Assembly: GCA_947584965.1 (NCBI GenBank)
Contig: CANPWQ010000015.1
Span: forward strand, 1-37,998
DNA length: 37,998 bases
DNA from: Candidatus Gastranaerophilales bacterium
GTDB taxonomy: Bacteria; Cyanobacteriota; Vampirovibrionia; Gastranaerophilales; Gastranaerophilaceae
Direction of reading: 5' to 3'
The first letter of the stretch is position 1. Every line of letters starts with the position of its first letter. The translations under genes and the position numbers were made by a program. Shown piece by piece: positions 1-2,788 of the stretch. The notes below the pieces were generated by a model. The model had not been told where the DNA came from, made no database searches, and saw only the letters and a list, made by a program, of their open reading frames with translations.

Positions 1-997
1 ATAAGCAATATGGATTGCATCTTCCGCCGTTTGCTGTTGCTGCTCTTAAACATCCGCCTTTACATACCGAAGAATATGCGCAGGTCTTACAGTAGCCCGT
101 TAACATTGAACAATCAAATTTACGATTATATGAGAATAAATTTTCATCATTCCATATTTCTTTTAGCGAACGCTCTCTGACATTAGCTTCCTTGTATTCA
201 TCACGTTGAAGAGATAAACAACCTCTAACTGTTCCGTCGCTGCCTAAACCAATACCGTTTATTCCGGCATGGCAGCCTATCCAGTATCCTTGAACGGCTT
301 TGCCTATTTCGCCCAAATATCCGATTACGTCGGCTCCTGAAACTTCTTCAAACTTATCTTTGTATTTTTTTCGGGTTTCCAATATGAATTTTGCTATTTC
401 AAAGAATTGTGCTTCCGTAATCATTGTTTCTTTAGACATACGCCCGATACTGTCACCATATTGAATTTGCCAGTATCTTATTTTATTTTTAATTAAGAAA
501 TCCCTTATTTTAGGCAGTTGTGAAAAGTTTAATTTGTGTATTGTTGTTACAACACTGGGAACAATGTTGTATTGATGCAGCAATTTGATTGCATTTTCTA
601 CGTGAGCAAAAACACCCTCTTTGCCCCTAATATAATCATGTAAATAATCGTCTGCTGCATCAATACTGATTCCGAAAGCTATTGGTCTTACCGCATCAAT
701 AATTTTTATAGTTTCTTCATTTACTAAATATCCGTTTGATATAAATCCTACTTGCATTTTGCAAGTTCTAATCATTGAAGCTATTGCCCCGATATCTTGA
801 CGCATTAACGGTTCTCCGCCTGATAAAATTACTGTTTTACATCCTAATTCAGCTAAGTCATTAATTACTTTATAGCATTCAGCCGTTGTTAATTGATGTT
901 CTTTTTCTACGCTTGTGCAATCTGAACCGCAGTGTATACAATTAACATTACATTTAAATGTTATTTCCCAAACCGCATTTTTAGGTTGATATATCAT
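1..997 (-). CDS. Radical SAM/SPASM peptide-modifying enzyme (3' end cut by window edge)
   Basis: The gene starts at 997 behind a strong ribosome site (AAGGAG, 6 nt before ATG) and runs off the left edge after about 332 residues. The radical SAM CX3CX2C cluster is visible as CNVNCIHC (Cys16, Cys20, Cys23), followed by the GGEP strand motif in ILSGGEPLMR. The C-terminal third has SPASM-type cysteines: CHAGINGIGLGSDGTVRGC, then several CxxC and C.GGC groups that would bind auxiliary Fe-S clusters. Such proteins mostly modify ribosomally made peptides. The divergently encoded neighbour at 1125 is a short peptide with a duplicated VYG motif, which makes it the likely substrate. Splicing (tyramine excision) is an inference from the motif. 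Another radical modification, or an unrelated peptide or protein substrate, is possible. A partner protein could lie beyond the edge. Confidence 0.85.
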   Translation of the reverse strand, partial: MIYQPKNAVWEITFKCNVNCIHCGSDCTSVEKEHQLTTAECYKVINDLAELGCKTVILSGGEPLMRQDIGAIASMIRTCKMQVGFISNGYLVNEETIKIIDAVRPIAFGISIDAADDYLHDYIRGKEGVFAHVENAIKLLHQYNIVPSVVTTIHKLNFSQLPKIRDFLIKNKIRYWQIQYGDSIGRMSKETMITEAQFFEIAKFILETRKKYKDKFEEVSGADVIGYLGEIGKAVQGYWIGCHAGINGIGLGSDGTVRGCLSLQRDEYKEANVRERSLKEIWNDENLFSYNRKFDCSMLTGYCKTCAYSSVCKGGCLRAATANGGRCNPYCL

Positions 998-1124
998 ACT
1001 AACTCCTTTTTTGTTATTGTAAACTTTTATTAATTTTTTGCAAAATTATTAAAGATTTGTAAAAAAAATGACGTAATTCTTTTTTATTATAGTTATATTA
1101 TTGTAAAAGAATGAGGTATTTATT

Positions 1125-1373
1125 ATGGGTAATGTTAATGAACCTAAAAGATTTAGTTTTGATGCATTAAATGCTAAAATGGTATATGGTATTTGTACTC
1201 CTAAAGGTAATAATGATCAGTTAAACAGTATTTTAAATGCTAAAATGGTCTATGGTATTCGTTCTCCTGAAGAAGATGTAGTTGATGTTAAAAAACCGGT
1301 GGAGAAAAAATTGTCATTAACTGATCGTTTAAGTAATTTTCTTTCCGGATTGTTTAAAAAAGAAGGAAAATAA
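1125..1373 (+). CDS. Candidate RiPP precursor with two LNAKMVYGI core repeats
   Basis: This 82-residue protein starts 127 bp from, and divergent to, the radical SAM gene; GAGG precedes the ATG. Residues 15-23 and 37-45 are the identical nonapeptide LNAKMVYGI, each followed by a C/R-T/S-P triplet, with a 22-residue period. The remaining parts are a short polar N-terminus (MGNVNEPKRFSFDA) and a C-terminal segment, residues 63-79 (LSLTDRLSNFLSGLFKK), that would form an amphipathic helix. Known cyanobacterial spliceotide precursors (PlpA/PcpA) carry X-Y-G motifs from which a radical SAM splicease removes tyramine to leave an alpha-keto-beta-amino acid. Here X would be Val20 and Val42. No Nif11- or nitrile-hydratase-type leader is present, unlike the classical precursors. 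The coding status is supported by the ribosome site and the exact repeat; the function is inferred. Confidence 0.7.
   Translation: MGNVNEPKRFSFDALNAKMVYGICTPKGNNDQLNSILNAKMVYGIRSPEEDVVDVKKPVEKKLSLTDRLSNFLSGLFKKEGK
1167..1259 (+). repeat. Tandem 27-bp core repeats in the peptide gene
   Basis: Copies at 1167-1193 and 1233-1259 are 66 bp (22 codons) apart and differ at one third-codon position (gta/gtc for Val). Together they encode LNAKMVYGI twice. The flanking sequence also shows weaker similarity (ATTTGTACTCC versus ATTCGTTCTCC), so the original duplicated unit was probably longer than the conserved core. Confidence 0.85.
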
Positions 1374-1449: not shown

Positions 1450-2439
1450 TTAAATTAAAGATATAATATTATCCGTATCAATATTCAAGCATTTTAGTTC
1501 GTTGCAGGTTGTTTGGCGTTTATCCCACAGGCATGGTCGGCAATCGCAATTATTTGTTATTGCAATGAATTTATCCGATTGAGGGAACAATTTTTTTTCA
1601 TTGGTAGGTCCAAATATTGCTATTGTTTTGGTATTAGTTGCAACGCCAATGTGCATTGGTGCAGAATCGGAACATATAAGAACTTGCGCACTTTTTACGA
1701 GTTTTGCAAAATCAAGCATATTTTTTGTTTTTCCGTACATATCTGTAAAATTACTTAAATCTGTTCCGTTCAATTCATTTCGTATTTGATTTATAACTTC
1801 TTCATCGTCGGGACCACCCGTTAAGATGACTTTTTTTCCGTTGTTTAAAAGTTTTTTTATAAGCTCTGCCCAAACTTTTGCTCCAAATATTTTTATTATT
1901 CCTTTTTGTACGCTTATTTTGCTTACTCCGGGATGAATAATAACCGTGTTTATTTCTCTTTCAACTTCATCAATATTGATTTTCGGTAATTCAAAATCGG
2001 TGTTTACAATCGGTCTGACCAAGTCAAAATACATATTTGCTGCATACTGATTTTGGTTTAAATGTATTGCATAAGTCAGTAACTTTTTACTTAAATTTGA
2101 TGTTTTATAGCCTATTCTCGTTTTTATTCCCGTAAAATACAGCAATAATGCAATTAAAGGATTTGCCCCTGAGGAAATAACAAGGTCATATCTGCATCTT
2201 CGTGCTTTAAAGTACAGCTTTAACATTTCAAAATATTTATTTTTTGTTTTGATGTCAATAAAAAAAGAGTTGTCAATTAAATTGGTAAGAGAAAGAAACC
2301 CCTTGCTTCTTCCCTCTAAACACAATGTAATTTTTGCCTCGGGATATGTTTTTTTTAAACTTTGAATAACAGGCAGAAAAAGAATTTCATCCCCAATTCC
2401 GCCAAAATTTATTAATAAAATATTTTTAAAAGATTGCAT
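1450..2439 (-). CDS. Family 9 glycosyltransferase (heptosyltransferase-like)
   Basis: The 329-residue protein has the GT9 layout: an N-terminal Rossmann half with the glycine motif GGIGD (residues 13-17), a linker strand with HPGVSK, and a C-terminal donor half with GGPDDEE and a SDSAPMHIGVA segment ending in FGPT. Members move sugars from nucleotide donors onto lipopolysaccharide-type acceptors at the inner face of the cytoplasmic membrane. A cluster of cysteines closes the protein (CDCRPC, then two more), as in many GT9 proteins. It starts one nucleotide after the stop of the 115-residue gene, so the two are probably co-transcribed. The exact sugar and acceptor cannot be read from sequence. 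Confidence 0.85.
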   Translation of the reverse strand: MQSFKNILLINFGGIGDEILFLPVIQSLKKTYPEAKITLCLEGRSKGFLSLTNLIDNSFFIDIKTKNKYFEMLKLYFKARRCRYDLVISSGANPLIALLLYFTGIKTRIGYKTSNLSKKLLTYAIHLNQNQYAANMYFDLVRPIVNTDFELPKINIDEVEREINTVIIHPGVSKISVQKGIIKIFGAKVWAELIKKLLNNGKKVILTGGPDDEEVINQIRNELNGTDLSNFTDMYGKTKNMLDFAKLVKSAQVLICSDSAPMHIGVATNTKTIAIFGPTNEKKLFPQSDKFIAITNNCDCRPCLWDKRQTTCNELKCLNIDTDNIISLI

Positions 2440-2440
2440 A

Positions 2441-2788
2441 TTAAAATGGTTTTGTTTGATTTAACTTTTTACGTAATTCACGAAAACGTGCAATATCTTC
2501 CTGTGCTTTGCCCGTTTCTCTGAATACAACTTGACTTGACGGGTGTACAAGCATAATACAGTCAATATGAATTTCAAGAAAATTATAACGTCTTGGAGGT
2601 GTATTAGAATTTCTTGCAATTATTTCCGCATTAGTGACAGCAAGAAAACGCTTTTCTTTATCATTTAATAAATCGGTTAATTCTCTGTTTGTTTTTGTAT
2701 ATTTTGAAACATGAACAGTACCTTTTATTTCATGGTCAGCTGTCAGTATAATAACTTCTATCGGAACAGTATCTAATTCTTTCGCCAT
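2441..2788 (-). CDS. Small conserved hypothetical protein upstream of GT9
   Basis: This is a 115-residue soluble protein with no signal peptide or membrane segment. The N-terminal half alternates short beta-like stretches (VPIEVIILTADHEIKGTVHV) and ends in a hydrophobic strand (LEIHIDCIMLVHPSS); the C-terminus is charged and helical. I do not recognise a characterised family. One nucleotide separates its stop codon from the start of the GT9 gene, so translation is probably coupled. A role alongside the glycosyltransferase is only a guess from context. Confidence 0.7.
   Translation of the reverse strand: MAKELDTVPIEVIILTADHEIKGTVHVSKYTKTNRELTDLLNDKEKRFLAVTNAEIIARNSNTPPRRYNFLEIHIDCIMLVHPSSQVVFRETGKAQEDIARFRELRKKLNQTKPF

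Follow-up and report, generated by a model that had tools for sequence, protein, structure and literature searches.

Organization of the locus

The window (the whole stretch of DNA that was analysed, 37,998 nt) constitutes the entire contig G000:C15. An ORF with Pfam matches to Radical_SAM (PF04055, 3.3e-24) and SPASM (PF13186, 3.6e-7) lies at its left end, head to head with the ORF of a small peptide. The Pfam matches and ORF coordinates thereby confirmed the divergent arrangement of a radical SAM/SPASM enzyme and an 82-residue peptide that had been put forward in the original prediction. The features of the locus are listed below (G and L numbers denote genomes and loci).

2..997, minus strand: radical SAM/SPASM enzyme, first 332 residues (Pfam matches, clade alignment, 96% identity to the G037 enzyme)
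998..1124, no strand: intergenic stretch between the divergent genes, presumably with both promoters (gene order)
1125..1373, plus strand: leaderless precursor-like peptide, 82 residues, two VYG cores (homologues in G037, G039 and G007)
1167..1206, plus strand: core repeat 1, LNAKMVYGICTPK; VYG codons 1182-1190
1233..1272, plus strand: core repeat 2, LNAKMVYGIRSPE; VYG codons 1248-1256
1311..1370, plus strand: C-terminal stretch LSLTDRLSNFLSGLFKKEGK, possible helical follower (helical moment, suggestive only)
1450..2439, minus strand: glycosyltransferase family 9 gene, syntenic neighbour (family match; order as in G037 and G039)
2441..2788, minus strand: DUF6812 gene, syntenic neighbour (family match; order as in G037 and G039)

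Since the window is the whole contig and the enzyme gene runs off its end, this gene is incomplete. An intact relative of 373 aa, encoded in G037, is 96% identical to the window enzyme, of which about 41 C-terminal residues are missing. The CxxxCxxC motif is invariant in the clade alignment (14 rows), and so is the SPASM pattern C242, G255xxxxC260, C303xxC306x5C312x3C316, C331 in the same alignment. Among the species compared, the dN/dS of the enzyme is 0.02-0.06. A structure model (mean pLDDT 70) was mostly good in the barrel, fell below 50 over much of the SPASM part and added nothing, and a PDB sequence search returned distant relatives only, with SkfB on top (1.8e-14).

The divergent peptide/enzyme order is conserved in G037 and G039, where the genes follow as DUF6812, glycosyltransferase 9, peptide, enzyme and, about 60 bases further, leucyl-tRNA synthetase. 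The glycosyltransferase family 9 and DUF6812 genes are probably outside the system. Past these two genes in G037 lies a frame of 450 aa whose cysteine motif is of the radical SAM type (L008 146-1498).

A leaderless peptide with a duplicated VYG core

The duplication of LNAKMVYGI at a spacing of 22 residues, as originally described, was found at peptide residues 15 and 37. At the DNA level the repeat covers 40 nt with 90% identity between 1167-1206 and 1233-1272. In 100,000 shuffles of the peptide, the longest repeat was at most 6 residues, against the exact repeat of 9 observed, and of 210 window frames of at least 40 aa a single other one carried an exact repeat of at least 7 (length 7). The duplication exceeds chance.

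A sequence search of 41 genomes with the peptide matched seven, the window's own included. Homologues were accepted in G037 (79% identity), G039 and G007, while the weak matches in G005, G017 and G033 (E 0.015-0.30) were not accepted as real. In G007 the peptide is located at the end of a contig, and that assembly yielded no enzyme at 1e-40. Both VYG sites are retained in all three species compared for dN/dS; the linkers and the residue preceding the valine vary. With a dN/dS of 0.33-0.39 (three species), the peptide is under purifying selection.

None of the Pfam and NCBIfam models fitted the peptide, the sole sub-threshold Pfam match being SHE3 (E 0.024). The reading frame is open for just 6 codons upstream of the ATG (1107-1370), so that there is no long leader and hence no Nif11/NHLP-type leader, as had been predicted. 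A phage origin of the peptide was rejected, as no match was obtained in the phage collection.

The helical moment was computed for nine peptides, among which the window peptide is not outstanding; in this and some other peptides, the 18-mer with the highest moment among the last 40 residues is not at the end. By eye, the C-terminal ends are alike in several partner peptides. That the partner peptides share an amphipathic helix at the C-terminus as their follower is weakly supported.

Recurrence of the enzyme-peptide pair

Searches for the enzyme covered 191 family genomes (matches at 1e-40 in 24), 41 genomes of the genus (matches in 12) and a wider contig collection, from which 79 loci were kept; the scan patterns in the latter were [YW][ML]HDYIRG and [NK]C[IM]HCGSD. 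Close relatives account for 25 of the 79 loci (L064-L088), labelled as Candidatus Gastranaerophilales (15), Cyanobacteria bacterium (2), unspecified bacteria (6), Muribaculaceae (L070) and Acinetobacter (L083); the last two are taken to be mislabelled bins. These relatives, mostly Candidatus Gastranaerophilales, bear out the expectation that the host is a relative of the cyanobacteria.

A locus was scored as positive when an ORF shorter than 450 aa, located no more than 1 kb from the enzyme, had at least two Y[GAM] sites that agreed in 5 of 8 context letters. Under this rule, 20 of the 26 distinct loci of clade A (the enzyme's Gastranaerophilales clade) were positive, as were 5/7 of clade B and 0/11 of the sister clade C. 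The 133 far ORFs from these loci yielded no positive; among 71 control frames, taken from the window and from four further loci, there were two positives, both being the peptide itself (window and G039). The enzyme-peptide pairing, whose recurrence in related genomes was a check proposed at the outset, is well supported.

The 26 clade A loci include the window, and L065 and L066, which are mutually close, were each counted. Loci that repeated counted ones, as judged by their neighbours, were dropped (L009, L013-L016, L018-L020, L035, L036, L064, L082, L153-L157 and L163), and so was L017/L073, a near-copy of L074 with the peptide truncated by the contig end. In the six clade A misses, no partner was seen for L067, L076 and L080, where only the available flank could be searched, L084 has a single LYGVP site, and the enzymes of L075 and L083 lie near a contig end. 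The clade B misses are L021 and L161, the latter with KYAPP repeats by eye.

Within the genus, G013 and G018 encode enzymes of 71-72% identity beside a peptide with three AMYGI cores, whereas no partner was seen near the enzymes of G020 and G002. In G020 (L035/L076) two clade A enzymes stand in tandem, and no X-Y-G partner was seen in the available flank. In G002 (L080, L157, L163) the enzyme is followed downstream by a 308-aa relative which has lost CxxxCxxC and kept SPASM-like cysteines, a pseudo-radical-SAM partner.

Partner proteins and core consensus

Apart from their cores, the clade A partners are mutually unlike and comprise small peptides of 79-134 residues, LysM proteins and proline-rich repeat proteins. 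The four LysM partners scanned (L087, L072, L070 and L085) all matched PF01476, and the partners of L071, L079, L068 and L081 had no match when scanned against Pfam. The core types are VYGI (2-3 copies), KYGAN-like (6-7), TKYGIN (3), LYGV-like (3-4), MYA[AV] (3), YAYxPP (3-5) and KYMPP (3); two partners of 239 and 249 residues carry 7 and 6 KYGAN-like cores, respectively. In the consensus of 64 cores from 19 loci, weighted per locus, X is L, V, K or M, position +1 is G in 15 of the 19 loci, A in three and M in one, position +2 is mostly I or V, and P is commonest at +5.

Placement of the enzyme

The best NCBIfam model for the enzyme was TIGR04103 (nif11-class peptide radical SAM maturase 3), which we take to be the same family as IPR026482, with 184.8 bits for the window and 188.4 for G037 at a cut-off of 725. 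PlpX has been assigned to IPR026482 (PMC11002830). TIGR04133 (rSAM_w_lipo) gave 173.5 and 176.7 bits, respectively, at a cut-off of 425, and TIGR03913, the model of GDL-motif maturases, 171.6 and 177 at a cut-off of 591.75; among the 14 members of the clade, the lowest single E-value was obtained with TIGR03913. The mycofactocin model matched the enzymes at 117-118 bits. Membership in TIGR04103, TIGR04133 or TIGR03913 was rejected, the scores lying far under the curated cut-offs.

Trees of 78 and 54 rows were constructed, with L057, a TIGR04103 match with stops, excluded from both and from the motif count below. In both trees clade A is sister to B plus C, followed by archaeal enzymes and TIGR04133. 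The PlpX and GDL enzymes form a clade separate from A (support 100/99 in the second tree); a constraint grouping A, B and C with PlpX/GDL was rejected (AU p 0.023), for a group that was named after the first tree, and the two deepest forks on the clade A side have SH-aLRT values of 39 and 28 only. As the scores are below the cut-off and the branch falls outside the PlpX/GDL clade, the sequences place the enzyme as a branch of the superclade that includes PlpX and not as a member of the PlpX family. Of the proposed affiliation with PlpX-like spliceases, family membership thus fell, and a common superclade and X-Y-G peptides as neighbours stood.

Following CxxxCxxC, a G-S pair is present in 27/27 clade A and 3/3 clade B enzymes, in four further clade B enzymes (L158-L161), in 21/21 PlpX-family enzymes, in 5/5 of their sub-cut-off relatives and in 4/4 GDL-like enzymes. 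It is present in 0/10 clade C enzymes, most of which have I-I. The TIGR04133-type and archaeal enzymes likewise carry G-S. In the rows from the contig scan (48 Bacteroidota-type, five archaeal and part of clade A), however, HCGS is partly there by construction because the scan pattern contained it; what counts for the argument are the rows of PlpX-type, GDL-like, clade B and clade C enzymes, plus the clade A rows from the family-genome search, all of which were found by other means.

Of 22 loci with TIGR04103 enzymes, 21 encode next to the enzyme a peptide that contains GG and, after it, YG cores (52 in total). In these cores X is mostly L, M or I, the tyrosine is followed by G, V and V/I, and P is most frequent at +5 and +6. 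The core IQPLYGIISPP of L068 (Gastranaerophilales) is nearly the same as the cyanobacterial IQPLYGVVWPP of L044.

Search for PlpY and PqqD

In 14 TIGR04103 loci the enzyme is followed by a frame of 56-118 codons with an LPR..W motif and then a K..LD helix-like stretch. The Nostoc copy, annotated as a hypothetical protein of 71 aa, overlaps the end of the enzyme and has no NCBIfam match. By position and size, this frame is taken to be PlpY. With the Nostoc copy as query, tblastn detected it in 21/21 other over-cut-off TIGR04103 loci (E 3e-4 or better) and in 0/5 sub-cut-off loci; matches elsewhere had E values of 5.8 or worse. A profile of the candidate PlpY found it in all six positive-control genomes with an over-cut-off TIGR04103 enzyme, in 0/15 Gastranaerophilaceae genomes and in 0/2 genomes with sub-cut-off TIGR04103 relatives.

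The original prediction called for a search for a PlpY-like partner on the side of the enzyme that is missing from the window. In G037 and G039, the leucyl-tRNA synthetase gene beginning some 60 bases past the enzyme leaves no space for such a gene. That PlpY or PqqD might be encoded elsewhere in the genome was likewise rejected, on the 15 genomes above for PlpY and on 12 genomes for PqqD, which was found in none of them. Two loci of the same phylum with a sub-cut-off TIGR04103 enzyme and no PlpY found (L058 and L059) have repeated QPKYGLPMPI or APMYGMPVRPP cores beside the enzyme, with no Nif11 leader seen.

Comparison with known systems

Like the PlpX-type spliceases (TIGR04103), the system in the window combines a radical SAM/SPASM enzyme with neighbouring X-Y-G cores followed by V/I and P, has HCGS after the cluster motif, and retains CxxxCxxC and the SPASM cysteines throughout its clade (14 rows). 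It differs from the PlpX system in lacking a Nif11/NHLP leader, in that PlpY was not found, in its separate branch and in its enzyme of 373 aa, which reaches 188 of 725 bits against the 412-position TIGR04103 model. The peptide carries, as two VYG sites, the X-Y-G motif by which spliceotide precursors are recognised, whereas the Nif11/nitrile-hydratase-like leader of the plp cluster is absent.

The GDL-motif maturases with DUF1843 peptides are similar in another way: they too have HCGS, and their small peptides are leaderless with X-Y-[GAM] near the N-terminus (eight peptides, three records), the motifs being IRMLYGG, KPYGVA, RPMYMA or LPMYAAS. Unlike the window enzyme, these enzymes group with PlpX and are longer (516 and 518 aa for the two with an annotation), and each peptide has one core. 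The peptide of the window is indeed leaderless, but the claim that it represents a new architecture is weakened, because leaderless peptides with an early core exist beside GDL-type maturases as well as beside many relatives. Among the matches listed in the literature search, no title or abstract opening named a Gastranaerophilales system of this kind; Scott et al. 2022 is outside that scope and may list the group.

The window's genome encodes a second enzyme, of clade C, 37% identical to the first (G000:C2:72070-73068). A frame beside it (L037 993-1277) contains four PLSGNVIPKFPVKPSEKPSR repeats, and other clade C loci have PLAGLIAPP-like (GLIAPP) or SGNVIP-like repeats, with no tyrosine core. 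This enzyme, the one of clade C that was scanned, matched NirJ2 best (170 bits) and TIGR04103 at 125 bits; clade C is therefore also the more divergent in its enzyme.

Proposed modification of the VYG cores

The 82-residue peptide is almost certainly the substrate of the enzyme beside it, and the tyrosine of each core would very probably be the site of modification. As a whole, the locus is probably a splicease-type modification system of a separate branch, leaderless, PlpY-free and multi-core. The enzyme would recognise the core X-Y-G-(I/V)-x-x-P and need neither a leader peptide nor PlpY. A tyramine equivalent (C8H9NO, 135.07 Da) would be removed at each V-Y-G site and the backbone rejoined, giving a product with two valine-derived alpha-keto-beta-residues and a summed loss of about 270.14 Da. 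Tyramine excision is a fairly likely reaction, judging by the likeness of the cores and the common superclade. A protease-directed or surface role for the product is a guess based on what has been published on spliceotides.

PlpXY excises C8H9NO (tyramine) at X-Y-G, with several sites per precursor possible, and is described as active without a leader on a ten-residue tag (PMC10533398, PMC10373908). By analogy with this multi-site and leader-independent action, the enzyme of the window would act at each of its two VYG sites. The recurrence of the pair, the similar cores beside PlpX-family enzymes, TIGR04103 as the best NCBIfam model and the common G-S pair count for the splicease-type reading. 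Against it count the failure to find PlpY, the protein that acts together with PlpX in the published system, in 15 genomes, the sub-cut-off scores, the separate branch, the six clade A misses and the acceptance by PlpXY of 2 out of 16 tag constructs in FtsZ (PMC10533398). Tyrosine is absent in the close sister clade C and several sister systems have Y-A or Y-M, so the chemistry may have drifted nearby.

Part of the same evidence bears on other ways in which the enzyme could act on the X-Y-G tyrosine, such as crosslinking it through a carbon-carbon or carbon-oxygen bond, oxidizing it or carrying out a mycofactocin-type oxidative decarboxylation. Branching outside the PlpX/GDL clade, the PlpY-negative result in 15 genomes and the variation of +1 between G, A and M would all agree with such a reaction; the mycofactocin model matches too, and the tyrosine-free repeats beside sister clade C mean that reactions may differ within the group. 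However, the cores resemble PlpX cores down to the V/I and P after YG, and the G-S pair is common to the PlpX-family enzymes; the variability of X (L, V, K, M) would further speak against a crosslink to this residue. We consider other tyrosine chemistry unlikely, although it is a serious competitor.

It is highly improbable that the repeats are merely structural elements of small or surface proteins, with the enzyme modifying another target and the pairing kept by descent only. Four partners with LysM domains, several proline-rich ones and the 3 of 26 loci (L067, L076, L080) with no partner seen in the available flank would fit this, but partners that are mostly unlike in sequence share the core, the core occurs in 0/133 far ORFs, and clade C lost the partner tyrosine along with the enzyme G-S. 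A sactipeptide- or ranthipeptide-like system can hardly apply: the enzyme has SPASM clusters and a cysteine follows the first core (VYGICTP), but the second core (VYGIRSP) and most relatives' cores have none, and the conserved core cysteine of those classes is thus lacking. Chemistry at this cysteine was rejected accordingly, as it occurs in core 1 only and is not conserved across the relatives' cores.

If splicing takes place as proposed, this would be a splicease independent of leader and PlpY that accepts short cores inside unlike proteins, which could aid the placing of reactive ketoamides in proteins, and beta-residue proteins would extend to non-photosynthetic gut relatives of the cyanobacteria. 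Tentatively, spliceases that do without leader and PlpY may have radiated within the Gastranaerophilales, each enzyme paired with a repeat protein of its own (a small peptide, a LysM or a proline-rich protein; up to seven cores in clade A and up to eight in clade B), which would yield proteins with several backbone beta-residues. In clade C, the tyrosine of an X-Y-A-P-P-like core has apparently been swapped for I/V (GLIAPP, SGNVIP), which on the same tentative view could mean excision at an aliphatic residue; with both the enzyme motif and the tyrosine gone, this clade offers a ready contrast.

For the wider superclade, HCGS in the enzyme together with X-Y-[GAM]-(I/V) in the partner provides a testable signature. 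Systems of TIGR04133 enzymes and TIGR04134 lipoproteins (mostly Bacteroidota) are like the window in having YGxP in a nearby small ORF, and unlike it in their lipoprotein-like partners, their mostly single YGxP site and an enzyme identity of about 30%; the family labels were checked by scan for four enzymes and one lipoprotein partner, all over the cut-off. In L095-L142 (Bacteroidota and a few others), 45 of 47 loci have a small ORF with YGxP no more than 700 bp upstream, the 48th having given no enzyme call, compared with 5 of 204 other ORFs, and these pairs may therefore be X-Y-G modifying systems too. Their partners often have CxxxxEYGTPSAKF, resembling the start of a mature lipoprotein. 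For the woesearchaeal (L089) and Lachnospiral (L147) relatives no clear partner was seen. In the Lokiarchaeota (L090-L092), small membrane proteins, from one to several per locus, come after the enzyme; inspection by eye showed [ALFK]Y[GS][ST][VI] in the second half of these proteins.
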